Shown here: piece by piece, positions 3,517 to 44,426 of the stretch | Layout: each line of letters opens with the position of its first letter | Numbering within the stretch: position 1 is the stretch's first letter | Source: Mugil cephalus | Lineage: Eukaryota > Chordata > Actinopteri > Mugiliformes > Mugilidae | Direction of reading: 5' to 3' | Assembly: GCF_022458985.1 (NCBI RefSeq) | Contig: NC_061771.1 | Span: 31,387,764-31,451,763, forward strand | Length of the DNA stretch: 64,000 nucleotides | Program-made: the position numbers and the translations under genes | The notes under the pieces: generated by a model | Database searches by the model: none | Told to the model about the DNA's origin: nothing | What the model saw: only the letters and a program-made list of their open reading frames with translations

Positions 3517-3524
3517 CCGAGATC

Positions 3525-8560: not shown

Positions 8561-8569
8561 AAGTAACAT

Positions 8570-10550: not shown

Positions 10551-10583
10551 TGAAGCAGAAGAGAGCGCACAGAGGTAGTTCAC

Positions 10584-13500: not shown

Positions 13501-14165
13501 AAACAGGCAAAAAAATGTTTAGCACTTGTATTGCTATGAGGTAAAAAATTAATTTATTTACTTATTTTTTAGAAATTTCAGTAAATGCTATTTTTGGCCC
13601 AACAGACATTTTATCTTTGAATACACCATTAGTTTTTAGACTGTGAATTGAGCCAACTTAAAACATTTTCTATGATATTCTTTGCAGATCATAGACTATT
13701 TGACCCATAACACACCACAGACTTTCACAATTTAATTAATGGTGAAAAAATGTTTTAGTTGTGTTAAAATGTCTGTTCATTGGGACATCGTGAAGCCTTG
13801 TCCCCATGAAAACAAGATTAAATTTAATTTTTATATATTTAATATTTCAAATTGAACCCGAACACAATATGAGGGTTAATGCTCATAAATGACATGTGTC
13901 AAAATGTCCGCCGTGGGGGAGGTATGTCTCCTGGGGACACCGAGGATGTCCCCAGGAGACCAATCAGGACAGCTCAGCTTTAAATGAAGCATTAGCAGCG
14001 ACCAAGGGACATTTAAGCGACATTTAAGGGACATTTAACCCCGTTGTGTCCTCACATCCCTCAAGTGTCTGCGCTAACAAACACACTGACCGTTATTTAT
14101 TTAAATCTGAGGAACGTGACGTCAACAGGTTTCAGCAGCACGAGCTGATTCGCGACGAAGGTGTG

Positions 14166-14221
<56 letters not shown>

Positions 14222-14440: not shown

Positions 14441-14560
14441 ACGGCAGTAACGGGGGCCCTGATTGGTCCGTGGGGCAGGTTCGTTCTAAACAGCTATTGG
14501 CTGCCCGGACTGTCAGTATGAGTGGGCGTGCACGGGTAATGGGCGTGCCCCAAAAGTGGG
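14440..14560 (-). promoter_or_regulatory. Putative wdr17 promoter
   Basis: CpG-rich segment with GATTGG at 14461 and ATTGG at 14496 on the + strand, that is CCAAT boxes on the minus strand, upstream of the minus-strand first exon. There is no TATA box. Inferred from composition and position only. Confidence 0.45.
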
Positions 14561-14599
14561 CGTGTCCAGTAGTCGCTAGAAGCTACACACCCTCTTTGG

Positions 14600-16255: not shown

Positions 16256-16257
16256 AA

Positions 16258-16847
16258 AATTTTATTACAAAAAAAAAAAAGAAATCCATTCTACAAAGTT
16301 GTCAAAGTTCCACATTAAAATGGCTGCAAACATTTTTAACCCATCTAGAGATAAATCCTGGCGGTAAAATGACAGTGAAGAGAACGGCACCGCGTTGAAC
16401 ACAAAACGCCAGCAGTGCTTCCAGAAAACGAGCTTTTTTTTAATTTTATTTTATTTTTTTAAATTTACCGGCTTGCCGCTAGTCCGCTGCACGTTACACG
16501 AGTCTCAGTCCGTTGCATTTGTCACAGGAGGAGGAGGAGGAAGGAGAAAATCTGATATCTGGCCGCCCGTTTAAATGGCAACGAGGATCTACGATGTAAC
16601 AATACAGCAGAAAACGTTTAAAACAAACAAAAACAAAAGATATTGAATGGTACGGGGACTAAGTGACAATAAAAACTAAATCCCTGAATTGTAAAAAGGA
16701 ACAGAGGTCCGACACCGAGGCCGACCCACAGGGACAGCAGGCTATACTGATGGAATCATACACACCAGAAAAACAAAAAAAACAAAAACAAAACCAAAAC
16801 ACAATCAGGAGTTAGGCTGAACAACAAACTTCACATCCTCAAACCAC
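16258..16847 (-). other. hmgb2 3' UTR with poly(A) signal
   Basis: About 590 bases after the stop codon on the minus strand, reaching AATAAA (TTTATT at 16261-16266 on the + strand). There is no competing open frame. The end is inferred from the signal. Confidence 0.65.
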
Positions 16848-19800
16848 TTAGTCGTCGTCCTCGTCGTCGTCGTCTTCATCGTCCTCCTCGTCGTCCTCGT
16901 CATCGTCGTCGTCGTCGTCGTCGGCTGGCTCCGCCTTCTTGGCGGCGGGCCGGCCCGGTCCGCTCTTCTTACCGGCGTCGCTCTTCCCTGAGCCGCTCTT
17001 GGCTTTGTAGGCGGCGACGTCCTTTAAAAAGGAAGAGAAAGAAACGGCATCAACATCTATAATATCTATTATCTGTAATATAATCTACATAAACCCCCAG
17101 ACAGAGACATTATGTTAGAAGTCTGTCGATGGGATGAATTAATTATCTGCTGAACATGCAGCTCCTGATTATATTAGATGTGTTATTAATGACTGGACCA
17201 ACTAAGTGTAACTAGACACTTGTGTCACATCTAACGCACAAAACAAATGGGGATTTATTATTGACGTTTTAAATGAGTAAAATTATTATGATGATAGTGG
17301 CGACTATAGTTTCACTAGTGCTATTACAGTATTTTTGTGTAATTATACTGGTATTACTACATTGTATCATGCACGTGTGTATTATAATTGTGTTATATTG
17401 TTGTGATAGAAAAGTTTCTTAAATCATTTTTGTATTTTACGTCCTTTGCGACAGAGAGAAAATCACTTGTGTTTGTTACAACCTAATTACTTCTTGTATA
17501 AATGTCCACACTTGTCCAGTTTATTCCTTTAAAAAATTAAAAAAAAATCTATTAATCTTTAACATAATCCACAAAGATGTGGTCGTGTCCCCACAGCGAC
17601 AAACCAATAAAGGTTTTCTATTCTGGTCTATTAGTGGTTGTCAAGGAGACAACAAACAATAAGTCTGTTTAGATGTTGTTTAAATAGATCCACGCGTTTA
17701 AATGGATTCTTTGTATAAATGTACATGATGTAAACGGTGGCGTGTGAAATAAAGTGAAGAGGACGTTGTTTTTCAGCTGTAATAAAGTTTAAACATATTA
17801 TATATAAATAACAGTGAGATAAAGATCTTCCTAATAATTCTATAAGTGAAACTGAAGCAGCTCTTGTCACCAGCTGTCGATACTTGTGTATCTGTGATGT
17901 GTAATGACTCAGTGCTTCGTGTTTTTGTATCGTAGAGTTCGTTTAACTCGGAGAAGTTGGACGTTTATTTTTACTCTGGAGGCCGAGACGTGTGATCGGC
18001 TGCTGGTGCTGGTTTGGTTGAGAAGTGAAGCCGTTTATCCAACGACTGAGACACTTTAACACGTCTATTATCTCATATCTGCACATAAATGCTGCATGAC
18101 TCAGGTAAATGGGACATTTACATTTGCTACCTCATTGTTTTCCTGTGTTACTTTTATTATTTCGTTTTCTAAATGTGTGGTTGAACTTATAACCCGGTGA
18201 CTGAACGAACTAAGCACCTTCTCGTATTTCTCCTTGAGCTTGGCGGCCCGGGCCTCGTACGGCTGCTTGTCTTTGGACGTCTGCGTGGCCCACAGCTCGC
18301 CCAGCTTCTTGGCGATGTCGCCGATGGAGATGCCGGGGTTTTCCTCCTTGATCCTGGGACGGTGGTCGGAGCAGAAGACGAAGAAGGCGGAGCTGGAGGG
18401 AGAGGAGAGGAGAGAGGAGGCGGTGAAGGTTTGGGGAGACGCTGCGTTTTTTCTGGAACAAGATGCAGCGTCTCTTTGTGCGCGTTCCCATTTAAATGTG
18501 TGTTTGTGAATGAGCTGTGAAGTCTTTACGTGACTTGTCGTCACTTTGAGGAAGATGGATTCAGATGAACTGGTCACATGATAAACTTCATGATCGTAAA
18601 CATGTTTTATCACGTTTTATTGAGATATTTGCACATTTGTAGGTGGAACGCAGTGTTAAGCTTATTCAACTTATTATTTAACGTAATATAACAAAGATAA
18701 AAAGTTCTCAGTGAGAGTCTATTTAAAATAATAACATACGTTCCCATTTAAACCTCAAACTTCCCGTCGGTCTCTTAGAAGTGAAGACGCCGCGTGTGTC
18801 GGTCACATTAAACAACTCTACTCTCTTTTTTAAAAAGGCCTTTTGTATAAATGAGCTCGTGGAGTTTTTCAGAGACAACGTTTCATCTGAGCAGCGTCTT
18901 CAGCTCTAAGGGAAGTTTGAGGTTTAACTGTGGGTAAAAACCATCAGAAACTTAACCAGAGCCTGAGTCGCTCTAGTTTTGTGGTTAATTCTAGTTTAAT
19001 ATCTGGTTTAAGATCAGATTCTCTGGAACCTGTAATAATATTCACATAATATCCTGTAAACTGTGTTTATTAAGTTGCAGTTTTTACTGTTTACGGTCTA
19101 AATGTCGTTAAGCTGAAGCTGATTCTAATGTTTTCAGAAAACATTTTGTATTCTTAGACATTTCTCATATTTCTTTCACTAATTAGCTTTCAGGCCAATT
19201 CTGCTGCTTCTTGTGTGTATTATTTTAGAGCCAGGACTCCTGCAGACTTACGGTGGCCTCTTTGGTGCGTTGGGGTCCTTCTTCTTCTTGCCCTTCTTGG
19301 CGCCTTTCGGTGGGACGTACGTCTTCATCTCCCGGTCGTATCGGACCTTGTCGTTCTTGGCCATGTCCTCAAACTTCACCTTCTCCTTGGCCGACATGGT
19401 CTAAAAAAAATAAATCAAACGATAAAAATAAATAACTTCCTGAAGTGGAGCACACATCCTCCTGAGGCGCGAGGTTCTGCTCGATGTGCAACGTAATTTC
19501 TCTACGGTGTTCGTATAGAAGCATAAAATAACTAGTATATTTAAAAACTAATCTTTGAACAGGATGTTGTCCTCGTGTGACTTTTATTGACTTTATTACA
19601 TGAGTATTTGCTGATTAGTGACGTTGTAGCTCGTTACTATTTGACCCGTTTATATTGTTATTACCACAATATTCCCACCAGTCGATCGTGTGTCTAAATA
19701 AAGCAGAATCACTTCCTGAACTGTTGCATGCAGCGATGTGCGTCCGTCCTCCTGAGACTCTGGCTTAGGAGGACGCACACACAACACAACACAACACAAC

Positions 19801-21797
19801 CACAGGTCTACTTGTATCTGCAGCACTAATCTCAGGCCGGCTGTGATCGTACCTTCCATCTCTCGGAGCATTTCTTGGAGAACTCTGAGAAGCTGACGCT
19901 CGTCCCCGGGTGCTTCTTCTTGTGCTCCTCGCGGCAGGTCGCCACAAAGAAGGCGTAGGAGGAGGTTTTCCCTCTGGGCTTATTCGGGTCCTTTGTCATG
20001 GCTGCGATTACTCTACAAAAAAAAAAAAAACAAACCGAAAGGTTAGATATGCAGATCTACTTTAATTAATGAGTCACGGGCTTAGACGCACAGAAATAAC
20101 AAAGGATTAAAATAAAACATGAGTAATATCTGGTAAAAAAAAAAAAAAAAAAGGAAACTAGTATCAACCGAGTTTTATTCTCAGAAGAACCTAAACCAAT
20201 ATGAAATATGTAGAAACTACTAAAATTAAATAGAATAAGCAAAAAACAAATGTATAAATTAAGGATAAAAACAAATATACAAAGGAACATGGTTTCTACG
20301 GGTTTCAACAAATGACCTTTTAACACTTTTTAAAACCTTTTTAAGGCCATTGTTGGTTCAAGAAATATTAAAAAAAAATATGAAAAATAAGGAAAACGAA
20401 ATGCACTTTCAAAATAACAAAACGTATCGTCGACCTGAGCTGAACCCTGGACTCAACTTCTAGGTCACATTTGTAGTTTCATTTCTGCTAAATGCAAAAG
20501 TCCTACAGTGCAAAAATACGCTCGTATTTAGGACTTTAAGGCCTCAAAATGTGATAAGACTCCGTGTAAACACGAAGGAATTTTATAATGTGCATGAATG
20601 TGAGTTTAAACAGCGATCGTTTAAATAAAGTATTTTTTTTAAAAAATATATATAAATATATATAAACAAAAGGGGCATTTAAAACGTAAACTACTCGCTG
20701 TAAACGTGATATTCGCCTCCTATCCGGGGACAATTAGGCCGAGAAGACGCCGAGGGGGAGTTTTAAGGCTTTAATCGGATTTTCTGCCTCCACGGGACAA
20801 AAAAGACGCGACTCCATTTTGTATCTTCCCGCCTAAACCCCAACAGCGCCAAAAAACTTCCCCAAATTTAAAAAAATAAACCCCCCACCCGGACAAAAAG
20901 ACCCTCTCCGCCGCCTCCCCCGCCTCCACCGCCGCCCTCCTGTCCCCGGGGGTTTTTAACCAGAACCGGATCCGAACCAGAACCCGAGACTTTCTGTCCG
21001 CAACTTTAAAATGGGAGCAAATGGCGTTTGAGCAGCATGTTGCGCACTAACTCGGAGCACGCGCACACGCAAACAGGGGAAGAGTTGCGGCTTCGACGGA
21101 GGATCGTGTTTAAAACGAACTTTCCGCTTTAAAACATCCACGGAGACATGGATCCTAACACAAATAGTAAAGTTGTGGTTTATATCGACTCACGCTGCGG
21201 TCAAGTGAGCCGTGACTCGATTTTTTTGCTTGCGCGTCTATTCCCGTACTTACGGCAGAGTCGGAACAGGCTAAAATGCAAAAACAACCCTCCTAAACCA
21301 AAATTAAACCTTAAAACTACAGTTACTATGGTTCAGGTTGTTAAAATATGGTTAATTTCATGAGTTACCACTATTACCGACTTGGTTCTTGTCCACAACT
21401 ATTATTGTACAATAGTTCAAATGATTTTACTGCGTAATTTTAAAAAATAAAGCCTATACTAACAAAATCCTTCAACCTAGAGGCGTTCTGGCAGTTAATG
21501 CCTCTTATTAATGAAGTTCTGAACCCATTTTTCATAGTTTTGTTCAAATAATCTCTTAATTCTCGTTTACTGACCCTTTACCGAAAGTACAAAAGTAGAC
21601 GCGCAGGAAAATCCGACCAAGGCTCACTTGACCGCAGTTCGTCTCATAAGCGAACTATTACCTCACTAAAGCGGATTTTAGTTGTTTAAGCTGCTCAAAC
21701 AGACGGATTTGCCCACATTGTAGACGACTACAGGAGAAAAGTCGGAAAATAAGTGAAATAAAGTGGTAAAAAGCTACAAAAACTGTCGACACTTACC
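16848..21797 (-). CDS. hmgb2: High mobility group box protein 2 (complete, left arm)
   Basis: Non-histone chromatin protein that bends DNA through two HMG boxes and carries an acidic C-terminal tail. The leader exon ends at 21797 (donor GTAAGT). Coding exons on the minus strand are 20012-19853 (ATG at 19999, [18 protein letters not shown]), 19400-19252 ([17 protein letters not shown]... box A end and linker [13 protein letters not shown]), 18392-18218 ([17 protein letters not shown], box B) and 17021-16848 ([10 protein letters not shown]... then a tail of about 25 Asp/Glu). Phases join exactly, giving 214 residues as expected (human HMGB2 is 209). [17 protein letters not shown] and the Asp-rich tail match fish hmgb2 better than hmgb1, and the hpgd/wdr17 neighbourhood agrees. 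Confidence 0.95.
18725..18945. repeat. Fold-back copy of the dispersed element, hmgb2 intron
   Basis: 'taaacctcaaacttcccg...gaagtgaagacgcc' (about 18748-18795) and its near reverse complement 'gcgtcttcagctctaaggga...gaggttta' (about 18895-18930) sit about 100 bp apart. The sequence is related to 10785-11345 but with the arms facing the other way. Confidence 0.55.
19735..19778. repeat. Imperfect hairpin in hmgb2 intron at the arm limit
   Basis: 'gtgcgtccgtcctcct' and 'aggaggacgcac' flank about 14 bases and can pair. Next to it lies a short 'acaac' repeat that differs by one unit between arms. The right-arm copy (about 43887-43926) ends exactly at the gap. Confidence 0.8.
20880..20955 (-). other. 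G-rich segment in hmgb2 intron 1
   Basis: The minus strand is strongly G-rich, with runs of 3-5 G separated by GGCGGC units, in a CpG-rich zone downstream of the promoter. It may form G-quadruplexes, though the loops between the longer runs exceed the usual 7 bases. The right arm lacks one short unit here. Confidence 0.4.
21195..21637. mobile_element. MITE-like element with ~70-bp terminal inverted repeats (left arm)
   Basis: Begins 'ctgcggtcaagtgagcc' and ends 'ggctcacttgaccgcag'. The inverted similarity continues inward through 'gcgcgtcta' and the 'taccgaaagtac / gtacttacggca' segments for about 70 bp, with about 300 bp between. There is no coding capacity and no clear target-site duplication. 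It sits in intron 1 of hmgb2 and is also present at 42050-42494. The superfamily is unknown to me. Confidence 0.7.
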
Positions 21798-22080
21798 TGT
21801 TCTCTGCGAGTCAAGTTGTAAACGAGTGAATGAGGAAAACGCGCAACTGTTATGTGCCTCTCTGCGAGGCCGACCTAACTTGACTAGAAGTAGTCCCTTA
21901 GCTCCGCCCCTCTGTCACACGATTGGACCGAATCTCACATTTAAATTTGAATTTTGAGCTCGAGGCCAGACGCGGAACCGCGATTGGTAAAGATCCTTAC
22001 CGTCACCGCGTCACGTTTGTGTGCGCCACCCGTGCGCTGATTGGCTGCGCTGGACTTTTAAACATACGGCGCGAAAAAAA
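21795..22080 (-). promoter_or_regulatory. hmgb2 promoter with three CCAAT boxes, GC box and E2F-like site
   Basis: On the + strand GATTGG occurs at 21921, 21982 and 22039, that is three minus-strand CCAAT boxes about 60 bp apart. CCGCCCC lies near 21904 and GGCGCGAAA (an E2F consensus on the minus strand) at 22068-22076. An AT-rich 'catttaaatttgaa' near 21940 contains a CHR-like TTTGAA. No TATA box is seen. NF-Y, E2F and CHR elements fit the known S/G2-phase expression of HMGB2 in vertebrates. The assignment to factors is inference. Confidence 0.6.
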
Positions 22081-22278
22081 ATGTCTCTTTGTTTGTTTGT
22101 AAGCAGCAGTCAAAATATCTTCGTCTGTTTTTGTGCGGTTACGCTTGAACCCTTTGTTTTCTGCGAGAGGCGGACAGCAGCTGGTTAATTCCGCCGGAGA
22201 AGACGACTCAAAGCGCTCCGTGTCGAAGATTTAATCATTTATGTTTAACCGCCGCGTGTGCCTGCGAAACTCCACAGC

Positions 22279-23390
22279 ACTTCCGGGTTTATTAAGTTCC
22301 AAAACACAACTCGCAGGCGGACAAAAGCCGAAGAAGTCGCCATCAACAACAGATATAGGATAAATACTGCAACACTAGAACAGATATAACCTGATAGAGT
22401 TCAGTTTAAAACAAAATAATGCTTAAAATTCTTTAAAATGCGAATTATTTTCCTCACAGCAGTAAAACTGGTTGATGACACGTAGTAAAAATGATATTTA
22501 CACTATTTTCTATTTTAGTTTAATAGATATTACTCATATTTCATTTTAATCTTATTTTGTCTTTCTTTTTTACTTCTCTTAACTGTTTCTTTTATGTATA
22601 ACTAGGTACTGTGACCGAGTAATTCCCTCGTGGGTCATTAAAGTCTCTAAGTCTAAGTAACACATCACATCACATATGAGTTCAGGGAAATGTAGAAGAT
22701 CTACCTGTAAAGAAAATAAATCTCTGTATTAGAACCGTAAAGAGCTGTTTGTTGTGTGTGTGTCATGAAAAGTGTAAAGTCTCTTTTGTCCCTGAAAGGT
22801 CTCTTGGGCCGACGTTTCTGTTTTGAGGTTTTTGTGTAATAACACATAGCTAAATCCATCAAAACAAATGCTACATGCTACGCTGGAAGCTAGCTGTTCT
22901 GGAGTCTCTCTGTTGGAAACTGATCAGATAATTTGGGCAGGAATTTAAGTGGTGAGCATTTAAAAATATTTAGGCTAACACAGTAGCTACCTTTACTTGT
23001 TTATTCTAACATAGTAGTTCACACAGTTTCTTATCTTTCTTGGGCTGCTGTTAGCTTGTTTATGCTAACATTGCTAACTTCACTTGTTTTTGCTGTTATA
23101 GTTGCTTAAGTTGCTTCAGTTATTATAGATTATTTTCTGAAAATATCATTTCGGGGTTTATTAAGAGTCTCAAAACACAACTTTAAATGACTGTTGGTAC
23201 CCACAGGCAAACAAAAACAGAAGAACTCATACTCGAAAATGGATATTGGATAAATACTGTCATTTAAAACAAGGCTGATGAAGCATAAGTCCTTTAAAAT
23301 GGGAATTATTTTCCTTACAGTTGTAAAACTCGCTGATAGCACATTGTAAAAGGGATATTTACACTATTTTCCATTTTATTTTGTGTGGGC
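22279..23390. repeat. Diverged direct duplication upstream of hmgb2 (left arm)
   Basis: 22279-22520 and 23149-23390 share the same order of blocks: 'gggtttattaag', 'caaaacacaact', 'ggataaatactg', 'tttaaaatg(c/g)gaattattttcct', 'gtaaaactgg', 'gatatttacactatttt'. Similarity by eye is around 75-80 percent. The interval between them includes 'gctaacatagtagc'-type sequence like the hpgd minisatellite. The same pair is present in the right arm. Confidence 0.7.
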
Positions 23391-23662
23391 TTGTCATCGG
23401 GACCCAGGTCACACGATGTGTTCACACTTTTATTTTTAACTTTCGAATTACAGGAAACCTAATTTATCTCAGATGTGTAATTCACGGGTAATTCAACTCA
23501 GTGATCATTTTGGTGGATGGAGTTTGTGGTGCTGTTAAAGTATTTTTAATGTTTATATTACAGCACAACAAACTTCAGAACACACTAAGTCAGCACTACA
23601 CACACATAAATATTACATTTAATGTAAATATGTAGTTTATGATTGAAATACTACAGCCAACA

Positions 23663-24246
23663 CTATATTGAAAGATATTGGGTCTTTCTTTCCAAGATTT
23701 AAAGGAGAGCATGAATCAAAGGAACTGTAAGAGGCTGGACAAGCTGGTTACGAAGGCCGGGTCTCTGATTGGCAGGAAGCTGGACTCACTGGGGACTATT
23801 GTTGAGAGGCGCACATACAACACAGTGCAGTCCATCCTGAACAACATCAGGCACCCGCTTCATGACATCCTGGAGGGGCAGCGAAGCAGCAACAGTAGGA
23901 GGCTTCTCTCACCACGCTGAGAGTTTCAAGACTCCTTTGTCCCCACAGTCATCAGACTGTACAACACCACTGTTTAAATGCTTTAATACTAATAGATGTA
24001 TGTGTGGGCTGTATATAGTTTTTTCACACAGTGATTCATATTGACATACCAGTACAGCCCATACACATACATATACTTCCACACATTTCTACATATTTTA
24101 CTTGCACTGTAGATTCTGGTGATTTTGTTGGTGTGTTATGTTGATGTATGTGTGTGTTTGTGGACCAGCTAGTGGAGCTTGAAGCTAGTTTCCCTCAGAG
24201 GATGAATGAAGTAAAGTTTTCTATTCTACTCTATTCTATTCTATTT
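23663..24246 (+). repeat. 5'-truncated L2-like LINE 3' end (left arm)
   Basis: The + strand encodes LVTKAGSLIGRKLDSLGTIV, ERRTYNTVQSILNNIRHPLH and DILEGQRSS...RRLLSPR, the C-terminal end of fish L2/CR1-type ORF2 proteins (HPL..., then ...RLLHPRC...). A PQSSDC...LFKCFN remnant follows in another frame. It finishes in a (TCTAT)n tail at about 24222-24246, typical of these elements. The right-arm copy is at 39436-40020. Confidence 0.8.
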
Positions 24247-24499
24247 GGAACGTAGCTTCAAGGTGAAGAAAAGTCAGAATACCCATTATATGTCCCATAA
24301 AAAACAACAACAACAACAACAACAGTTTGTAGGTTTTTTATAGTGTTTAGACTCTGAGTTTGTAGCAACGTGAAATAATCAGTCAGATAATTAAAGTCCC
24401 AGGAACGTTTGATTTTATGGCTGAAAAATTAAAACTGACTCACTATGTCATTTAATTCACAAAATCAAGGCTCTATCTATAAAGAAGTAATCGGGTAGA

Positions 24500-25436
24500 A
24501 TGGATGAAAATGAGCTTTGACATAGTAGTTTCCCTATCTCATTATGTCTCGTATAAATTACCTCATGGCCATTATGGTAACCTGCTAGTGAAAAGTGACC
24601 CTTGCTCAACTGTCTATTTAAACTCCACAATCCAAGGTCTCTATGCTAATTGGTGGGACCTGATACATGACTATGTCAGTTAGATATAGTTTGTGTAGCC
24701 TCACCTGCTTGAAGTACCGTCAAGTGTCCACTTGCATAAAGGATGACAGTCAGCATACACTCAGTAGCTGTGCCATTTAACATCAGTTGTACAACCATTG
24801 CCATTCCGCTCCTCAACAACTTGGCTCCTATCCTTTTGACCTTCAGAACTCTTAATATCTGGATGTCAAACTTTCACCACATCCCAAAGGTTCCTCTATT
24901 GCTGAATATCTAGAAGACACCGGAGCCGTTAGAGTACATAAACCCCTTTGTCCATGTTCTGATCATGAGCTTTGACATGGTCATGATCCCTCATGGAAGT
25001 AGCCTCGAAGATGTCCACGTGTGGCTATAAAGGATGTGACAAAGGCACAATTAACTCAGGGGCTGTGCATTAAACACTCTCAGTTTGTACTAATCCGTAA
25101 GTATGCCATTCCTCCTCTGACCTCTCACATCAACAACTTCTGCTCACTGGTATTTTCTCTTTTTGGACCATTCCTGTTAAACCCTAGAGTAGGTTGTGAG
25201 TTAAAATCCCAGTAGATCTGCAGTTTCTGAAATACTCAGACCAACAACCAGACCACGTTCAAAGTCTCTTAAATCCCCCTTCTTCCCCATTCTGATGCTC
25301 AGTTTGAGCTTCAGCAAGTTGTCTCGATCACCTCTACATGAGTAAATGCACTGAATTGCAGCCACGTGATTGGCTGATTAGCTATTCGTGCTAATAAGCA
25401 ATTGAACAGGGGTGTACCTAATAAAGTGGCAAGCTT
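24500..25436 (-). mobile_element. Decayed Tc1/mariner-like relic, left arm
   Basis: The right half (about 24815-25436) matches the right-arm element in reverse and ends in the fish Tc1-type terminus 'ggtgtacctaataaagtgg' (25411-25429). The left half (about 24500-24810) does not match the right arm one to one. It carries a second, more decayed copy of the same internal segment ('ctgcttgaagtaccgtc', 'cataaaggatgaca') and lacks the second terminal repeat. Confidence 0.55.
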
Positions 25437-25479
25437 CTGGTTTTAGTTTAACACTCCGGTACAGTAGGCGGCATCAGCT

Positions 25480-25626
25480 TCCTGCTGAGATCAACACCAA
25501 AGAAGAAGAAGCCTGAGCGGAAGGAGTTGTAGTTCAGAGAACAGTGGACTGACTACAGAGTGAGTACAGACATAAGGATTGTGTCCACACTGACGGAGAT
25601 AGTCTGTTTATTCTGAGGCAGAAGAC
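25480..25626 (+). promoter_or_regulatory. Putative pmm2 promoter and leader (left arm)
   Basis: TATA-less. Contains GCGGAAGG (ETS-like) followed at once by 'agttgtagttc', whose reverse complement GAACTACAACT resembles the core of ZNF143/STAF sites found in many housekeeping promoters. Site calls are by eye. Confidence 0.4.
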
Positions 25627-28093
<2,467 letters not shown>

Positions 28094-28375
28094 TGAAGTC
28101 AATCTAGTTTAAATAATGTTGAGCTCATACGTTAAACACAATGCTAATGGGGAGGCTAAAGTCAATGCTATATATCATGCTAAAGACAATCCTAAAGACA
28201 TAATTATGAATATGATCAGTTATTAATTATTTAATTCATGGATGTCATGTTCAAATATGTTTTAAAAGTTAACTGAGGCAGTTGTGTTTATTATTTATTT
28301 GTTTGTTAATAAGAGGATTTAATGGACGACTCAGAAAATAAACAGATTCAGCAACTTATTTTCTGTTTTCATTTC

Positions 28376-28875
28376 NNNNNNNNNNNNNNNNNNNNNNNNN
28401 NNNNNNNNNNNNNNNNNNNNNNNNNNNNNNNNNNNNNNNNNNNNNNNNNNNNNNNNNNNNNNNNNNNNNNNNNNNNNNNNNNNNNNNNNNNNNNNNNNNN
28501 NNNNNNNNNNNNNNNNNNNNNNNNNNNNNNNNNNNNNNNNNNNNNNNNNNNNNNNNNNNNNNNNNNNNNNNNNNNNNNNNNNNNNNNNNNNNNNNNNNNN
28601 NNNNNNNNNNNNNNNNNNNNNNNNNNNNNNNNNNNNNNNNNNNNNNNNNNNNNNNNNNNNNNNNNNNNNNNNNNNNNNNNNNNNNNNNNNNNNNNNNNNN
28701 NNNNNNNNNNNNNNNNNNNNNNNNNNNNNNNNNNNNNNNNNNNNNNNNNNNNNNNNNNNNNNNNNNNNNNNNNNNNNNNNNNNNNNNNNNNNNNNNNNNN
28801 NNNNNNNNNNNNNNNNNNNNNNNNNNNNNNNNNNNNNNNNNNNNNNNNNNNNNNNNNNNNNNNNNNNNNNNNNNN
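28376..28875. other. Assembly gap, 500 N
   Basis: Placeholder gap. The left arm of the inverted duplication stops at its left edge, and the myotubularin gene on its right lacks upstream exons. Confidence 0.99.
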
Positions 28876-28989
28876 AATCTATAAAAAACTAATATTCCTG
28901 TGTAGTCCTAGTCTCAGTGTTGTGTCATGTCCACAACTCTCACTAAAACTGTGTGAACCTTAGGAATAGAAGATACTTTTAGTGTCTTC

Positions 28990-29090
28990 AGTGTCATTTT
29001 TTGCACTTTGCAAATTCCTCCCATGGGCCAGATTAGACCCTCTGGTGGACCTCTTTTGGACCGCGGGCCGTATGTTTGACACCTGTGGTG
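28990..29090 (+). repeat. Dispersed repeat fragment, copy 1
   Basis: 'gggccagattagaccctctg' and 'cgcgggccgtatgtttgaca' recur in the same orientation at 35338-35392 ('gggccacattagaccctctg', 'gcggcccgtatgtttg'). The motif is widespread in vertebrate genomes. It lies in an intron here and in pmm2 intron 6 there. Confidence 0.6.
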
Positions 29091-29120
29091 TAAGAGGATG
29101 TTGTGTGTCTGTGTGTCCAG

Positions 29121-29694
29121 GCTTCATGAGCGAACTCACTCCGTGTGGCCTCAGCTGTGGAAGGACAGACGTCAGTTCTCCAACCCTCTGTACCAGGCCG
29201 AGCTGAGTCAGAGTCAGGGCGTCCTGAGACCCAACACCTCCCCCTACTGCTTCAAGTGAGTCACTGCAGCTCAGACAGATCAGTGCAATGGAACATCACA
29301 GAATGAAAACACACACAAAAAAAACAAATGTAATGATAAAGCAAATCGATGCTAGAGAGCTGCATTTTAATTCAAACCAGACACAAAATAAATGAAACGA
29401 TCTGCGTTTCGCTACTAAATGAATCCTCACCTTCATGAACCGAACCTCTCTGCACCCCTGCAGGATGTGGAAGGGTCTCTACGACCACGGCGACAAGGCC
29501 ACGCCCCCTCGCCAGTCACCTGCCGACTTCCTGTCCGCCGTGAGGGAGGAGTCTCTGCAGCTGGAGGAGGAGCTGACCAATCACCAGGAGGTACCACCAG
29601 GAGGAACCGCCCACCACCCGGCCCCGAGACAAGGCATACGACACACAAAGACACCCCCCCACCCCTTCAACTCCAACACCAGCAGATAGATAGG

Positions 29695-29756
<62 letters not shown>

Positions 29757-30814
29757 CATAGATAGATAGATAGATTTTAACTTTTCACATTTACAAACAC
29801 AAAAACAGAGCTGTTTCAACGTCTTGGAAGAAGAAGGAAGATACGTCGCAATCTTCGTGTTTTATCAAAAAAATACACGTTAACTTTAACAATGTTTAAT
29901 TTTAAAAATGGCCGCTGAACTCTGACCTTTTGATTGACACCTCATTGAACCAATTCAGAGTCGAGAAGCCAGTGAGAGTCAGCGTGGGACAGAGGCCCCT
30001 TCCCCCTTCTTTCATTCACACACTGAGCAAACATCAGTCAACTTAGCGGGTGATTGGCTTGTTGTGTAGCCAATGAGCTGCTCTAAACAACGACGTGTGA
30101 CACATAGTTTGGTTTACTGGTAGACAGACGTCTGTGCGTAATTTTCAAATGAGAAACATGCAAAAAATGTGAAAACCTAATATCGTGGCAGCCCTACTTC
30201 ACACCATAGAAGAAGAGTCTGTTTACATCTCAGTATTTAGCTCCTGATAAGGGAATCAGAAGAAAAGTTCATTTTTTAACCTTGAATCCTTTTGAATTTT
30301 TGTTTATTTCATGAATAAAAACTGAAGAAACTGATTTTTTTTTTCCATAGCGTAGTGAACACACCAACTTTCCCCCAAGTTATATCTGGACAAGGCAAGA
30401 GCTTTCACGGAGGCGGCCATCTTGTTTTCAGACTTGCATTAATATGCATTAAGATGACGCAGAGCTGTGATTGGTCGGCTGTGGATATAATTAAAAACGT
30501 GCCCCGTTGTTTCCAGACGTGAACCAGAACGTTGAGTCTCTGCTGATCTGAAAGTTCATTTCTTTCATTTGTTTTGCTTTGTTTTGCAGAGGATAGCAGC
30601 TCTGACGGGTCGGCCAGTCACGTGGCCGAAGGTGGAGGTTCCGAGGAGGAGGAGGAGGAGGACTAGCCGGACCGGGACCAGCGGGCCGGACCCCCAACCA
30701 ATCACCAGCCCCGTACAGGTCCCCGACGACCCCTCCACCTGCAGCGACCTGGAGTCGGGCGTGGCCGACCTCAGCAGCCACTCGTCCAGCGGCGGCGACC
30801 CGGACCTGGAATGA
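29121..30814 (+). CDS. Myotubularin-related phosphatase, last three exons (MTMR6/7/8 group)
   Basis: Exons 29121-29255 (HERTHSVWPQLWKDRRQFSN, PLYQAEL, GVLRPNTSPYCFK), 29464-29590 (MWKGLYDHGDKATPPRQS then EESLQLEEELTNHQE) and 30590-30814 (RIAALTGRP, Arg run, DLESGVADLSSHSSSG, stop). Splice sites are GT-AG and phases agree, giving about 161 residues. The W...NPLY, VLRPNT, FK-W and PRQS landmarks followed by a coiled coil match the C-terminal end of MTMR6/7/8 phosphoinositide 3-phosphatases, which dephosphorylate PI3P and PI(3,5)P2 on endosomes. PH-GRAM and phosphatase domains must lie upstream, in or beyond the gap. The last exon also has a second open frame ending EEEEED. I prefer the frame that continues the coiled coil. 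Confidence 0.75.
29682..29776. repeat. (GATA)n microsatellite
   Basis: About 23 GATA units with a few substitutions, in the last intron of the myotubularin-like gene. Confidence 0.95.
30350..30430. repeat. Dispersed 'AAGATGGC' repeat, inverted relative to 32650-32720
   Basis: 'acaccaactttcccccaag...gagctttcacggaggcgg' followed by CCATCTTG is the near reverse complement of 32655-32720 ('aagatggccgcctccatgaa...gtggaaacttggtgtgttc'). Further CCATCTT/AAGATGGC strings occur at 33192, 33733 and (as GCCATTTTG) 33770. Confidence 0.55.
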
Positions 30815-30950
30815 GGACGGTCTTTATCCAGACGGCTGGAGGGAGGGAGGAGGGAGGAGGGAGGAGGAGGGGGGAGGACGGGTCCTGTCCTCCACTGAAA
30901 AGGGAGGTTTTAATTTCACTTTTAGTTTAATGGCTGCTGTTAAATAAACT
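30815..30950 (+). terminator. 3' UTR and poly(A) signal of the myotubularin-like gene
   Basis: A GGA-rich tract (about 30838-30880) follows the stop codon, then AATAAA at 30943-30948. Confidence 0.65.
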
Positions 30951-30959
30951 CAGAGAGCA

Positions 30960-33695
30960 GAACAAACTCTGGAGCTCGTCTCCGTATTTCTCTGGTTAGT
31001 GGTTGTGTTAGTTGACGCAGGGTTTGTCCTCGGAGTCTTAAATCTGAGGACACAAATATTCACAAGTCTTTTATAATTTATTTTTTTTGTCGTTGTTGTT
31101 GTCGTGTTTTGTGCAATGTTTGATTTTCTCCAGGAGACGTTTCCTCTTAAAGGAGACGAGGATTTTAACCGGCTGTGTGTCCGAGCTCATCGTGTTGTTT
31201 AATGAAATAAATCCACACATGAAACAAATTAAAGAACAAGCGGAGACACAAAGATAACTGGACTTTCTAGGAAACATTTCCTCAGAAATCAGATCAGGAT
31301 CAGACTCAGACGGTGAATTATCAGGCACATCCTGATAAAAAACAAATCATTTAGAGCTGAAACATCTTGTAGAAACACAATGAGTCCACGTGTCTCGTTC
31401 TTTAATCTGTTGTCCAGGACATGGACGACTGTGGACCTTCCCGACCATTTAAAGGACGTCTCCTTTTTACCTGTAGCCCGTGGTGTGCGTGTCCCGTATG
31501 TGTTGATGTAAACGATCAATCAATAAAACGCTCTGTTAAAGGGAAAGAAACGTCTCAGAGTCCTGATTAAATAATTATAACACTGATTAAATCTTATGGG
31601 GTTGTTACTGTGAACTTTAACCTCTGGAATATTCCTTATTTTAACACAGTAAGTAAGTGAACTTTATTTCTATAGCACGTTTCACAGTGAACAAACCCAC
31701 AAAGGGCTTCACAATAATAATAATAAAAAGACAGAATAGTTAACAAAACAAAGACAATAAATCAAAGTACATTCAATTCAAACAATTTACAGAAGGCCTG
31801 TTTAAATAAAATATATACTATAAAATAAATAAAAGAGTCTAAGTGTTTTCAGTCTGTAAACTTTATATAAATATGGACCAAATGACGTCACACCCGAGTT
31901 ATAGGTGACCGTAGTAAATTAGGCCACGCCCCCATTCGGGTTAAAATAAACCAGTAGCAGTAAATAAAGTGTGTTGCTAGTATTTGTTGGCCGGAGAGAA
32001 GGTGAAATAACTAACGTTAGTCAGACAAACACATAAACAACGTCGTTGAGTGATGATTAGTGATGTTACATAGAAAAACAAATACTTATGTTCACACAGC
32101 GCAGCGAGCGTGAAATGAGTGGACGACCCCACTCATACCGGATATTTACTCTATTACCTCATCGAATCTCTGTATAATATATGACATCTGATATCAATTT
32201 ATAAGCATCCAATGATGTTAAACTAATTAATTATGACATGAATACAGCATGAAGCTTAGCCGACGTTAACCCTTTAGTTAAGGTAACTCTGTTACCTGCG
32301 GTCATTTCAGCATCAACATTCACTACTTTGACTTTTTAACATGAATTTGGATTTTTAACATTATAATTAACAACTCTGACAAATGACTTTATCTAACGCT
32401 CGCATCATAATTTAAAATGATAACGCGTTTGCCGCACACGTTCACATATCGACTGTCAGGGTCCATATTTGTTGACCTGAAGACAAACATTTCTACGGTT
32501 TATCCTTGTCTCTGGAGAGGAGCAGAGAAAATATCAGAGTTTTATCTTTTAAATTGTTGCAGTAACAATACACAACACAGCAACTTCTTAGTTCTCACAC
32601 TGAAGGGGGCGTGGTCCATCTGCGTTACAGTTACAGAAGTTGGAGAAAAAAAAGATGGCCGCCTCCATGAAAGCTCTTGACTTCACTGAATATAACTTAG
32701 TGGAAACTTGGTGTGTTCAATATTTACATGTTTTAAGTTCATAGTGAAATTAAAGTTGCTTATTTAAAAAACTTGATTTTAACTCATAGTATTGCTACAA
32801 CTATATTTAGGCTGTTTAAGTTCCACAAACTAAATCGAAGTTTTTTTTACTAGAATTATTTACAGTGATGGAATTTGCAAGACCACACGAGGCAGAAATT
32901 AAAATATATATATATATATTCCAAAGTTTTAATTGTGGAAAAAAATACACTATTAATCCCAGTTTGCCACGATGGTGTCTGGCTCTGTTTTGGTTTCACC
33001 AGGCTATTGTTTTTAGCCGTTGTTAGCACGAGATGTGCTTGTAGTTCCCATATAACACATGAAAACCTTAAATTACCCTGTAACAACGTATTTATGTGGA
33101 TAAATAATGTCCGTACGACTGGTTTAATGTAACAAAAATAATCAGAAGAGCTAATAAAATGAATATTACAAGAGCTTCTAATTACTGTTTATACACAGGG
33201 CGGCCATCTTAGAAACTCAACTCAGAGGGTAGTGAGGATTCTAAGACTTTCTGAGCAGGAAATCCGACTTCATGGACGTTCCAGTTGAAAATACCGACAA
33301 ATGGAAGGCTAACTTATTATTTAAAATAGTTTCCACAAATCTCATGGTCCCACAGGACCACTTTATGGAGCGGTTGGCATGACAATTTGCGGTCGCCAGT
33401 ATGTATGTTTTGTCCTGTTTCTGAAGCGTTCATATGATGAACTGAAATTAAACTTTGATAAAAAACAACACTTGAGCATTCAACATTATATTAAACCACC
33501 TGAAATGACCGAAACCATCCTTGAAAATAATTTATTAGATGTGTATTTTAGTGTTTTAGTTTGGCCCAAGTCCCGCCCACTAACATGGAGGGGGTGGAGC
33601 TTATGACCACTACCGCAGCCTCCAGCAGGAGCTCTAGTAGCTTTAGAGGAGCTGTCATGACGTCCATATTTATGAACAGTCTGTACAGGTCAGAC

Positions 33696-33733
<38 letters not shown>

Positions 33734-33850
33734 GATGGCGGACATCTGTCCTCCTCCATATATAGAAGCGGCCATTTTGAGGCGTAGTCTTGTTATCAAA
33801 TGGGCGGAGACTAAATCAAATGATCGGATCATGAGTTTACATTAAAACAT
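30960..33850. other. Spacer between myotubularin-like gene and pmm2 (right copy)
   Basis: Tail-to-tail intergenic region without a recognisable gene. It holds a fish retroposon fragment at about 31650-31860 ('aactttatttctatagcac', related to 5405-6245), the AAGATGGC-type repeats and a (TA)n run at 33699-33730. Open frames here are short and unconvincing. Confidence 0.6.
33699..33730. repeat. (TA)n microsatellite
   Basis: 16 TA units between two AAGATGGC-type repeat pieces. Confidence 0.9.
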
Positions 33851-33865
33851 CAATCACTGCAGAAC

Positions 33866-34223
33866 TTTATTGATGAAGAGGAGCATTAAATCTACTGGAA
33901 ACAGAACAGAAGAAGAAGAAGAAGTGTCCATGTAAGTGTCCAGTCCTGAATGTCTTTGAGAATCTTTGAAGACGACCAAGATGTCTCCACGTCTCCACCA
34001 TCTCTGTCCACATGTGATTCCAGCTTCGGTTCATCTTTGTTTTCTTCCCCCTGGTTTCTGTCCCTCCTGGAAACTGTATTCATTCATTCATTCATTCATT
34101 TATTTAGGAGATGATTGGTGAAGGTTTCCACCACCTGAACCTCGTCCCTCAGCCTGGTCTGGTCTGAGTCTTATTCTCCACCTTGAGTTTGTCTTTTAAA
34201 GTCATTTATTGACAGTCTGGTCC
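33866..34223 (-). other. pmm2 3' UTR with poly(A) signal
   Basis: From the stop codon to AATAAA on the minus strand (TTTATT at 33866-33871). Includes a short (CATT)n run at about 34081-34100. Confidence 0.65.
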
Positions 34224-38230
<4,007 letters not shown>

Positions 38231-38419
38231 GTCTTGTCTCAGAATAAACAGACTATCTCCGTCAGTGTGGACACAATCCTTATGTCTGTACTCACTCTGT
38301 AGTCAGTCCACTGTTCTCTGAACTACAACTCCTTCCGCTCAGGCTTCTTCTTCTTTGGTGTTGATCTCAGCAGGAAGCTGATGCCGCCTACTGTACCGGA
38401 GTGTTAAACTAAAACAAGA

Positions 38420-39092
38420 AGCTTGCCACTTTATTAGGTACACCCCTGTTCAATTGCTTATTAGCACGAATAGCTAATCAGCCAATCACGTGGCTGCAGT
38501 TCAGTGCATTTACTCATGTAGAGGTGATCGAGACAACTTGCTGAAGCTCAAACTGAGCATCAGAATGGGGAAGAAGGGGGATTTAAGAGATTTTGAACGT
38601 GGTCTGGTTGTTGGTCTGAGTATTTCAGAAACTGCAGATCTACTGGGATTTTAACTCACAACCTACTCTAGGGTTTAATAGAGAATGGTCCAAAAAAGAG
38701 AAAATATCCAGTGAGCAGAAGTTGTTGATGTGAGAGGTCAGAGGAGAATGGGCAGACTTACGGCTTAGTACAAACTGAGGATGGTTTAAATGCCACAGCC
38801 TACCTGAGTATAGTTGCTGACCATGTCCATCCCTTTATGACCACAGTGGACCATCTTCCGACGGCTACTTCCAGCAGGATAATGCACCATGTCACAAAGC
38901 TCATATCATGAACATGACGATGAGTTCACTGTACTCCAACGGCCTCCACAGTCACCAGATCTCAGTCCAATAGAGGAACCTTTGGGATGTGGTGGAAAGT
39001 TTGACACCAAGAATTAAGACAGTTCTGAAGGCAAAAGGGGGTCCAACCTTTTACTAGCAAGGTGTACCTAATAAAGTGGCCAGTGAGTGTAT
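38420..39092 (+). mobile_element. Decayed Tc1/mariner-like element, right arm
   Basis: Both termini are recognisable as inverted copies: 'gccactttattaggtacacc' at the left and 'ggtgtacctaataaagtggc' at the right (39061-39080), the signature of a fish Tc1-type family. The interior retains pieces reading like FQQDNAPCH (about 38870) and SPDLSPIEE (about 38953) of a DDE transposase on the + strand, with frame breaks. Non-autonomous and dead. Confidence 0.7.
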
Positions 39093-39435
39093 ATTTTATT
39101 TAGAGGACATATTGAGAATAACGGGGGGCTAACAACTACTACTACTAGTCCAAGAGACTTCAGGTTTTCAATCCATTTCTACCCCGATATCTATTTTTCT
39201 TGCTTTTATAGATGGAGCATTGATTTTGTGAATTAAATGACATATAAAGTCAGTTTTAATTTTTCAGCCATAAAATCAAACGTCCCTGGGACTTTAATTA
39301 TCTGACTGATTATTTCACGTTGCTACAAACTCAGAGTCTAAACACTATAAAAAACCTACAAACTGTTGTTGTTGTTGTTTTTTATGGGGCATATAATGGG
39401 TATTCTGACTTTTCTTCACCTTGAAGCTACGTTCC

Positions 39436-40020
39436 AAATAGAATAGAATAGAGTAGAATAGAAAACTTTACTTCATTCATCCTCTGAGGGAAACTAGCTT
39501 CAAGCTCCACTAGCTGGTCCACAAACACACACATACATCAACATAACACACCAACAAAATCACCAGAATCTACAGTGCAAGTAAAATATGTAGAAATGTG
39601 TGGAAGTATATATATATGTATGGGCTGTACTGGTATGTTAATATGAATCACTGTGTGAAAAAAATAAATACAGCCCACACATACATCTATTAGTATTAAA
39701 GCATTTAAACAGTGGTGTTGTACAGTCTGATGACTGTGGGGACAAAGGAGCTCCTGAACCTCTCAGCGTGGTGAGAGAAGCCTCCCACTGTTGCTGCCCC
39801 TCCAGGATGTCATGAAGCGGGTGCCTGATGTTGTTCAGGATGGACTGCACTGTGTTGTATGTGCGCCTCTCAACAATAGTCCCCAGTGAGTCCAGCTTCC
39901 TGCCAATCAGACACCCGGCCTTCGTAACCAGCTTGTCCAGCCTCTTAGAGTTCCTTTGATTCATGCTCTCCTTTAAATCTTGGAAAGAAAGACCCAACAT
40001 CTTTCAATATAGTGTTGGCT
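39436..40020 (-). repeat. 5'-truncated L2-like LINE 3' end (right arm)
   Basis: Counterpart of 23663-24246. The minus-strand frame reads LGLSFQDLKESMNQRNSKRL and LVTKAGCLIGRKLDSLGTIV onward, ending in an (ATAGA)n tail at 39436-39460. Confidence 0.8.
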
Positions 40021-40294
40021 GTAGTATTTCAATCATAAACTACATATTTACATTAAATGTAATATTTATGTGTGTGTAGTGCTGACTCAGTGTGTTCTGA
40101 AGTTTGTTGTGCTGTAATATAAACATTAAAAATACTTTAACAGCACCACAAACTCCATCCTCCAAAATGATCACTGAGTTGAATTACCCGTGAATTACAC
40201 ATCTGAGATAAATCAGGTTTCCTGTAATTCGAAAGTTAAAAATAAAAGTGTGAACACATCGTGTGACCTGGGTCCCGATGTCAAGCCCACACAA

Positions 40295-41405
40295 AATAAA
40301 ATGGAAAATAGTGTAAATATCCCTCTTACAATGTGCTATCAGCGAGTTTTACAACTGTAAGGAAAATAATTCCCATTTTAAAGGACTTATGCTTCATCAG
40401 CCTTGTTTTAAATCACAGTATTTATCCAATATCCATTTTCGAGTATGAGTTCTTCTGTTTTTGTTTGCCTGTGAGGTACCAACAGTCATTTAAAGTTGTG
40501 TTCTGAGACTCTTAATAAACCCCGAAATGATATTTTCAGAAAATAATCTATAATAACTGAAGCAACTTAAGCAACTATACCAGCAAAAACAAGTGAAGTT
40601 AGCAATGTTAGCATAAACAAGCTAACAGCAGCCCAAGAAAGATAAGAAACTGTGTGAACTACTATGTTAGAATAAACAAGTAAAGGTAGCTACTGTGTTA
40701 GCCTAAATATTTTTAAATGCTCACCACTTAAATTCCTGCCCAAATTATCTGATCAGTTTCCAACAGAGAGACTCCAGAACAGCTAGCTTCCAGCGTAGCA
40801 TGTAGCATTTGTTTTGATGGATTTAGCTATGTGTTATTACACAAAAATCTCAAAACAGAAACGTCGGCCCAAGAGACCTTTCAGGGACAAAAGAGACTTT
40901 ACATTTTGTTCCAAAATGTCATGACACACACAACAAACAGCTCTTTACGGTTCTAATACAGAGATTTATTTTCTTTACAGGTAGATCTTCTACATTTCCC
41001 TGAACTCATATGTGATGTGATGTGTTACTTAGACTTAGAGACTTTAATGACCCACGAGGGAATTACTCGGTCACAGTACCTAGTTATACATAAAAGAAAC
41101 AGTTAAGAGAAGTAAAAAAGAAAGACAAAATAAGATTAAAATGAAATATGAGTAATATCTATTAAACTAAAATAGAAAATAGTGTAAATATCATTTTTAC
41201 TACGTGTCATCAAACAGTTTTACTGCTGTGAGGAAAATAATTCGCATTTTAAAGAATTTTAAGCATTATTTTGTTTTAAACTGAAACCTATCAGGTTATA
41301 TCTGTTCTAGTGTTGCAGTATTTATCCAATATCTGTTGTTGATGGCGACTTCTTCGGCTTTTGTCCGCCTGCGAGTTGTGTTTTGGAACTTAATAAACCC
41401 GGAAG
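40295..41405. repeat. Diverged direct duplication upstream of hmgb2 (right arm)
   Basis: Counterpart of 22279-23390. The two related blocks lie at about 40295-40535 and 41160-41405. Confidence 0.7.
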
Positions 41406-41839
41406 TGCTGTGGAGTTTTCGCAGGCACACGCGGCGGTTAAACATGAATGATTAAATCTTCGACACGGAGCGCTTTGAGTCGTCTTCTCCGGCGGAATTA
41501 ACCAGCTGCTGTCCGCCTCTCGCAGAAAACAAAGGGTTCAAGCGTAACCGCACAAAAACAGACGAAGATATTTTGACTGCTGCTTACAAACAAACAAAGA
41601 GACATTTTTTTTTCGCGCCGTATGTTTAAAAGTCCAGCGCAGCCAATCAGCGCACGGGTGGCGCACACAAACGTGACGCGGTGACGGTAAGGATCTTTAC
41701 CAATCGCGGTTCCGCGTCTGGCCTCGAGCTCAAAATTCAAATTTAAATGTGAGATTCGGTCCAATCGTGTGACAGAGGGGCGGAGCTAAGGGACTACTTC
41801 TAGTCAAGTTAGGTCGGCCTCGCAGAGAGGCACATAACA

Positions 41840-43816
41840 GTTGCGCGTTTTCCTCATTCACTCGTTTACAACTTGACTCGCAGAGAACAGGTAAGTGTCG
41901 ACAGTTTTTGTAGCTTTTTACCACTTTATTTCACTTATTTTCCGACTTTTCTCCTGTAGTCTTCTACAATGTGGGCAAATCCGTCTGTTTGAGCAGCTTA
42001 AACAACTAAAATCCGCTTTAGTGAGGTAATAGTTCGCTTATGAGACGAACTGCGGTCAAGTGAGCCTTGGTCGGATTTTCCTGCGCGTCTACTTTTGTGT
42101 TTTCGGTAAAGGGTCAGTAAACGAGAATTAAGAGAATATTTGAACAAAACTATGAAAAATGGGTTCAGAACTTCATTAATAAGAGGCATTAACTGCCAGA
42201 ACGCCTCTAGGTTGAACGATTTTGTTAGTATAGGCTTTATTTTTTTAAATTACGCAGTAAAATCATTTGAACTATTGTACAATAATAGTTGTGGACAAGA
42301 ACCAAGTCGGTAATAGTGGTAACCCATGAAATTAACCATATTTTAACAACCTGAACCATATTAACTGTAGTTTTAAGGTTTAATTTTGGTTTAGGAGGGT
42401 TGTTTTTTTGCATTTTAGCCTGTTCCGACTCTGCCGTAAGTACGGGAATAGACGCGCAAGCAAAAAAATCGAGTCACGGCTCACTTGACCGCAGCGTGAG
42501 TCGATATAAACCACAACTTTACTATTTGTGTTAGGATCCATGTCTCCGTGGATGTTTTAAAGCGGAAAGTTCGTTTTAAACACGATCCTCCGTCGAAGCC
42601 GCAACTCTTCCCCTGTTTGCGTGTGCGCGTGCTCCGAGTTAGTGCGCAACATGCTGCTCAAACGCCATTTGCTCCCATTTTAAAGTTGCGGACAGAAAGT
42701 CTCGGGTTCTGGTTCGGGTCCGGTTCTGGTTAAAAACCCCCGGGGACAGGAGGGCGGCGGGGGAGGCGGCGGAGAGGGTCTTTTTGTCCGGGTGGGGGGT
42801 TTATTTTTTTAAATTTGGGGAAGTTTTTTGGCGCTGTTGGGGTTTAGGCGGGAAGATACAAAATGGAGTCGCGTCTTTTTTGTCCCGTGGAGGCAGAAAA
42901 TCCGATTAAAGCCTTAAAACTCCCCCTCGGCGTCTCCTCGGCCTAATTGTCCCCGGATAGGAGGCGAATATCACGTTTACAGCGAGTAGTTTTAAATGCC
43001 CCTTTTGTTTATATATATTTATATATATTTTTAAAAAAATACTTTATTTAAACGATCGCTGTTTAAACTCACATTCATGCACATTATAAAATTCCTTCGT
43101 GTTTACACGGAGTCTTATCACATTTTGAGGCCTTAAAGTCCTAAATACGAGCGTATTTTTGCACTGTAGGACTTTTGCATTTAGCAGAAATGAAACTACA
43201 AATGTGACCTAGAAGTTGAGTCCAGGGTTCAGCTCAGGTCGACGATACGTTTTGTTATTTTGAAAGTGCATTTCGTTTTCCTTATTTTTCATATTTTTTT
43301 TTAATATTTCTTGAACCAACAATGGCCTTAAAAAGGTTTTAAAAAGTGTTAAAAGGTCATTTGTTGAAACCCGTAGAAACCATGTTCCTTTGTATATTTG
43401 TTTTTATCCTTAATTTATACATTTGTTTTTTGCTTATCTATTTAATTTTAGTAGTTTCTACATATTTCATATTGGTTTAGGTTCCTCTGAGAATACAACT
43501 CGGTTGATACTAGTTTCCTTTTTTTTTTTTTTTTACCAGATATTACTCATGTTTTATTTTAATCCTTTGTTATTTCTGTGCGTCTAAGCCTGTGACTCAT
43601 TAATTAAAGTAGATCTGCATATCTAACCTTTCGGTTTGTTTTTTTTTTTTTTGTAGAGTAATCGCAGCCATGACAAAGGACCCGAATAAGCCCAGAGGGA
43701 AAACCTCCTCCTACGCCTTCTTTGTGGCGACCTGCCGCGAGGAGCACAAGAAGAAGCACCCGGGGACGAGCGTCAGCTTCTCAGAGTTCTCCAAGAAATG
43801 CTCCGAGAGATGGAAG
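41840..43816 (+). CDS. hmgb2: hmgb2 second copy: leader exon and first coding exon only
   Basis: The leader exon ends at 41890 (donor GTAAGT) and the coding exon is 43657-43816, with ATG at 43670, encoding [18 protein letters not shown]... to CSERWK, 49 residues identical to the left copy. The contig stops 110 bases into the next intron at the gap, so exons with the rest of box A, box B and the acidic tail are absent. The sequence after the gap is unrelated. Most likely this is the same gene seen on another haplotype. The promoter with three CCAAT boxes lies at about 41600-41830. The leader start is approximate. Confidence 0.9.
42050..42494. mobile_element. MITE-like element with ~70-bp terminal inverted repeats (right arm)
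   Basis: Counterpart of 21195-21637, within hmgb2 intron 1. Same termini 'ctgcggtcaagtgagcc'. Confidence 0.7.
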
Positions 43817-43926
43817 GTACGATCACAGCCGGCCTGAGATTAGTGCTGCAGATACAAGTAGACCTGTGGTTGTGTTGTGTTGTGTGTGCGTCCTCCTAAG
43901 CCAGAGTCTCAGGAGGACGGACGCAC

Positions 43927-44426
43927 NNNNNNNNNNNNNNNNNNNNNNNNNNNNNNNNNNNNNNNNNNNNNNNNNNNNNNNNNNNNNNNNNNNNNNNNNN
44001 NNNNNNNNNNNNNNNNNNNNNNNNNNNNNNNNNNNNNNNNNNNNNNNNNNNNNNNNNNNNNNNNNNNNNNNNNNNNNNNNNNNNNNNNNNNNNNNNNNNN
44101 NNNNNNNNNNNNNNNNNNNNNNNNNNNNNNNNNNNNNNNNNNNNNNNNNNNNNNNNNNNNNNNNNNNNNNNNNNNNNNNNNNNNNNNNNNNNNNNNNNNN
44201 NNNNNNNNNNNNNNNNNNNNNNNNNNNNNNNNNNNNNNNNNNNNNNNNNNNNNNNNNNNNNNNNNNNNNNNNNNNNNNNNNNNNNNNNNNNNNNNNNNNN
44301 NNNNNNNNNNNNNNNNNNNNNNNNNNNNNNNNNNNNNNNNNNNNNNNNNNNNNNNNNNNNNNNNNNNNNNNNNNNNNNNNNNNNNNNNNNNNNNNNNNNN
44401 NNNNNNNNNNNNNNNNNNNNNNNNNN
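43927..44426. other. Assembly gap, 500 N
   Basis: Placeholder gap. It starts immediately after an imperfect hairpin in hmgb2 intron sequence. Confidence 0.99.

Follow-up and report, generated by a model that had tools for sequence, protein, structure and literature searches.

An apparent 8.5-kb palindrome at an hmgb2-pmm2 locus is in all probability an assembly artefact

The 8.5-kb palindrome that appears to carry hmgb2 and pmm2 is almost certainly an assembly artefact and not a biological structure. Judged from the assembled sequence, this artefact would quite probably have arisen from allelic contigs, placed next to each other with one of them backwards. An artefact had already been proposed in an earlier note on this DNA, and the reading is now supported by the base-exact continuity of the two contigs, the manner in which the genes are split between them, outer exons that are found singly, and a second dovetail upstream.

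Layout of the window and the inverted pair

The window, that is the whole stretch of 64,000 nucleotides analysed here, represents C2:31387764-31451763 of a 634.8-Mb assembly consisting of 24 sequences; from its gene content and the 24 long sequences, the organism would be a teleost. It is interrupted by three gaps of exactly 500 N each (9339-9838, 28376-28875 and 43927-44426), the positions of which define contig 2 as 9839-28375 and contig 3 as 28876-43926. Scans of the window with Rfam, at gathering thresholds, and with ARAGORN returned no matches. The following elements make up the apparent palindrome, numbered from the first base of the window:

9839-28375, plus strand: contig 2, 18,537 bp, with 500-N gaps on both sides; its tail, 19738-28375, is the left arm
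28876-43926, minus strand: contig 3, 15,051 bp, reversed relative to contig 2, with 500-N gaps on both sides
19738-28375, plus strand: left arm, with hmgb2 exon 1 (minus strand) and pmm2 exons 1-5 (plus strand)
35512-43926, minus strand: right arm, the outer 8,415 bp of contig 3, with the content of the left arm inverted, matching 28375-19738
28376-28875: gap of 500 N, on the inner side of the left arm
43927-44426: gap of 500 N, on the outer side of the right arm

Self-BLAST and alignment place the inverted pair at 19738-28375 and 43926-35512, within 2 bp of the limits that had been assigned to it previously (19740-28375 and 35512-43926). Two inverted matches were recovered by self-BLAST, 19738-24483 with 43926-39205 (97.9%) and 24832-28375 with 39038-35512 (95.4%), while a global alignment with affine gap penalties yielded 8,210 matches, 135 mismatches and 100 gaps totalling 363 bp. 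The affine alignment was used instead of an earlier MAFFT alignment with zero gap extension, which contained 308 mismatches, mostly located in a single divergent block:

24484-25170, plus strand: poorly matching block of about 690 bp, set against about 38685-39204, with many small indels between the arms

Outside this part of the left arm, the affine alignment displays substitutions at 95 of 7,862 sites (1.2%), accompanied by 12 gaps longer than 2 bp and by 20 gaps of one or two bases in about 7,950 bp. The earlier note put the arms at roughly 98-99% where they had been compared, with small indels, and did not mention the badly matching block. When 1 kb of the left arm was searched against the 635-Mb assembly, 41 matches were listed: the two arms themselves, near-identical to the probe, and 39 short pieces at 68-92%.

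Contig ends and missing junctions

Both arms are flush with a contig terminus: the left arm stops at the final base of contig 2, the right arm at that of contig 3. The inner limit of the left arm and the outer limit of the right arm are in other words contig ends, so the arm ends are not independent of the contig ends, and the coincidence of both with placeholder gaps, which had been pointed out before, is exact to the base. Upon flipping of contig 3, a flush dovetail is obtained: contig 2 ends with the sequence with which the flipped contig 3 begins. Contig 2 ends with ...TTTTCATTTC; in flipped contig 3 the sequence is ...TTTTCATTTCGACAG, followed by pmm2 exon 6 (with a putative acceptor), the likely first base of which lies 5 bp beyond the point where contig 2 stops. 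The proposal that flipped contig 3 would extend contig 2 seamlessly is hence borne out, with continuity that is exact to the base and that proceeds through pmm2 exons 6-8. The orientation given to contig 3 in the assembly is contradicted by this overlap with its neighbour, as it is the flipped form that continues contig 2. With contig 3 misoriented, a plain end-to-end overlap takes on the appearance of a palindrome.

True palindromic segmental duplications are a known kind of structure, which the present arrangement resembles, with its two inverted arms, each about 8.5 kb long, on either side of a spacer. A young inverted duplication, with truncated hmgb2 (exon 1) and pmm2 (exons 1-5) and with contigs broken at the repeat edges, would agree with the order printed in the assembly, and flush ends could also result from contig breaks at the edges of a true repeat, since assemblers that break at repeats leave such ends. 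We nevertheless regard this explanation as very improbable. The arm junctions that have been assembled are those of a single-copy locus, namely hmgb2 exon 1 to exons 2-4 and pmm2 exon 5 to exons 6-8, whereas neither of the two junctions specific to a palindrome is present in assembled form, both being situated in 500-N gaps. Hence, in contrast to a true palindrome, the inverted order comes without an assembled junction, the arms end where contigs end, and flipping of contig 3 restores one ordinary locus.

A real inversion that is polymorphic between haplotypes, with contig 3 inverted on one homologue, would similarly give the printed orientation for one haplotype. It is however barely conceivable, considering that no breakpoint has been assembled and that the end at 43926 coincides with the end of the contig, a short way beyond hmgb2 exon 1.

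Ko et al. 2022 (PMC9516828) describe a gap between copies on one scaffold as a primary mark of false duplication, and the two copies are here separated by an assembly gap, 28376-28875, on one scaffold. Half read depth over both copies, one-copy (heterozygous) k-mers and discordant linked reads between the copies are further criteria of Ko et al. for the heterotype form. Furthermore, the overlap runs to the ends of both contigs, a criterion that is our own and not derived from Ko et al.

Distribution of hmgb2 and pmm2 exons

To place the genes, 100 kb was added on each side of the window, and human protein queries were compared by tblastn with the seven contigs of the resulting 264-kb stretch, the outer two of which are cut by its ends (the exon numbers of hmgb2, pmm2 and hpgd are our own numbering). 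All exons of hmgb2 are present on contig 2 (about 19990-16860, minus strand), with exon 1 only on contig 3 (43679-43825), and with weak matches only on contig 4 (28-86%), mostly to acidic low-complexity runs. For pmm2, all exons are present on contig 3 (about 38203-34233, minus strand), and exons 1-5 only on contig 2. The exons that fall outside the duplicated arms are, by tblastn:

16860-19400, minus strand: hmgb2 exons 2-4, on contig 2, outside the arm
34233-35521, minus strand: pmm2 exons 6-8, on contig 3, in the 'spacer' of the apparent palindrome

In assembly-wide searches, where the best candidates were scored, hmgb2 exons 3-4 were found once at the locus; five of the seven matches were located elsewhere in the assembly and are 52-67% identical. 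A search of the assembly with the Pfam PMM profile returned 12 matches, seven at the locus and five in a C20 gene, and pmm2 exons 7 and 8 (profile positions 146-197 and 185-220) were each recovered once at the locus. Exon 2 of hmgb2 and exon 6 of pmm2 were sought within the 264 kb. The single occurrence of hmgb2 exons 3-4 and pmm2 exons 7-8 at the locus, among the best candidates scored, likewise argues against a true palindrome.

The assignment of hmgb2 and pmm2 to the arms, initially made from the letters and open reading frames, is confirmed by tblastn, Pfam and matches to solved structures, the latter backing the identity of PMM2, and Pfam that of the HMG box and of the short-chain dehydrogenase. 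The 'mtmr' gene suggested to follow pmm2 could on the other hand not be confirmed: for three pieces of ORFs situated past pmm2 on contig 3, Pfam gave no family, and two of them, joined, gave no match in a search of solved structures.

Differences between the arms

In all, 603 coding bases were compared between the arms. Exon 1 of hmgb2 and exons 1, 4 and 5 of pmm2 are identical, and over the roughly 450 coding bases of pmm2 that were compared, the left copy departs from the right by four replacements and a single silent change, all in exons 2-3. Of the replacements, three fall within 13 bp of exon 3 (27407-27419 in the left arm, 36444-36456 in the right) and alter a 10-residue motif, the right-arm form of which is common to two PMM2 chains among the solved-structure matches. 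The changes in the left arm may reflect a real allele, an error in the consensus, or decay of a true copy. The non-silent nature of these changes could suggest a decaying copy and thereby a true palindrome. A real recent inverted duplication would then present a second, truncated hmgb2-pmm2 head-to-head promoter pair surrounding the 3' half of pmm2, with the left pmm2 decaying in the 10-residue motif, a scenario to which we attach hardly any credence.

The poorly matching block is rich in short gaps, with 31 of one or two bases in the 331 bp of 24840-25170, compared with the 20 in about 7,950 bp outside 24484-25170. From about 24872, the block matches many dispersed repeats at 71-90%, with one 30-base piece at 97%. 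A tandem repeat was sought as the cause of the divergence in 24484-25170, and none was found. A poor consensus in a multi-copy repeat would explain the noise. Neither the oddities of the left pmm2 nor the noisy block supply the missing palindrome junctions.

It is also possible, although rather unlikely, that the two contigs originate from the same haplotype and were left unmerged through residual long-read errors, i.e. a homotype false duplication, which is a sub-case with the same error in the layout. Such an origin is compatible with the density of short gaps in 24840-25170 and with the cluster of three unusual changes in exon 3 of pmm2. However, the 95 substitutions and the 12 gaps longer than 2 bp outside the block look like ordinary polymorphism, and an allelic origin is likelier than one from read errors.

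A second dovetail upstream

The 264-kb stretch harbors six gaps, all of 500 N, between its seven contigs. In an all-against-all BLAST comparison of the contigs, limited to matches longer than 300 bp and at least 85% identical, a near-identical overlap that reaches an end of both contigs was detected for two of the six adjacent pairs, the studied pair included. The other case, directly upstream of the studied pair, involves 13.9 kb, with bases 1-13,899 of contig -35209..-8057 equalling bases 3,001-16,895 of contig -7556..9338. The identity is 99.4% by BLAST, with 36 substitutions in 13,876 aligned sites (0.26%). In this pair the strands agree and the order of the contigs is swapped. Two features lie in the window:

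1-9338, plus strand: terminal part of contig -7556..9338, the last 13,895 bp of which equal the head of the preceding contig
about 3525-7934: hpgd exons 1-3, on contig -7556..9338, where hpgd is cut after exon 3

Using tblastn, human HPGD matches contig -35209..-8057 in pieces over residues 1-257 of 266, so that hpgd is all but complete there, and contig -7556..9338 over residues 1-109 only, equivalent to exons 1-3. The upstream dovetail thus yields a false truncated copy of hpgd.

With two flush overlaps, one inverted and one swapped, the assembly in this region retains unmerged overlaps and misorders or misorients short contigs. The same geometry in another layout next door speaks against a true palindrome, as two true duplications that both end at contig ends would be needed, and the swapped pair is left unexplained by a real inversion. 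The divergence is uneven, with 1.2% substitutions and a noisy block in the studied pair versus 0.26% in the upstream pair, the latter low figure being in favor of unmerged contigs of the same haplotype.

Second copies were also sought throughout the assembly for three contig starts that do not take part in a dovetail (those of contig 3 and contig 4, and near the start of the contig at -7556). For all three, the only full-length match was the query itself, and the other listed matches are partial (69-100%), the longest being to a repeat piece of 550 bases, at 95-97%, within the start of contig 4.

Possible origin and consequences

Returning to the artefact, we propose that two contigs cover one hmgb2-pmm2 locus and overlap by 8.4-8.6 kb, most likely representing two haplotypes of one fish. 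These overlapping contigs would have been neither merged nor purged, and the scaffolder would have joined them with a fixed 500-N spacer and with contig 3 the wrong way round, a flip that may be attributable to Hi-C scaffolding. The real locus would be single copy, with hmgb2 and pmm2 head to head and the rest of contig 3 downstream.

This scenario resembles the heterotype false duplication, or haplotypic duplication, of Ko et al. 2022 (PMC9516828) in the near-identical neighboring copies, the gap between them, and the genes that are cut and falsely duplicated. It differs in that one copy is also inverted, and in that the present case is judged from assembled sequence alone. In two 3D-DNA projects, 500 Ns are placed between contigs (PMC10320752, PMC12879420). 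Separately, 3D-DNA is reported to misorient short contigs, a benchmark having put its rate of orientation errors at 4.3% (PMC7672694). The contig of 15 kb, its wrong orientation and the gaps of fixed size are reminiscent of a misoriented short contig in a 3D-DNA scaffold, as addressed by HiC-Hiker (PMC7672694), the 500 N here being consistent with that scaffolder.

Taken at face value, this DNA would lead to spurious copies of hmgb2, pmm2 and hpgd, a spurious palindrome, and spurious rearrangements in synteny maps. A near-identical overlap of neighboring contigs that reaches the ends of both offers a check that does not require reads; applied to the six gaps in this 264-kb part of the 635-Mb assembly, it picked out both cases.

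Other repeats in the surroundings

The two most upstream contigs (-99999..-35710) have the look of a tandem family, and the pair was therefore left out of the dovetail count. They share 20 listed blocks of 0.3-4.3 kb at 88-96%, 18 of them direct and two inverted; two of the 20 extend to where the first contig ends, yet are internal to the second. The shared blocks probably represent a tandem gene or repeat array. Close to hpgd, self-BLAST revealed overlapping self-matches at 75-86% in 5508-6058, a degenerate tandem array. Finally, the start of contig 4 contains, at 45178-45727 of the window, a 550-base piece of a dispersed repeat that recurs at 95-97% at no fewer than 39 other places in the assembly, and that represents a young repeat family.
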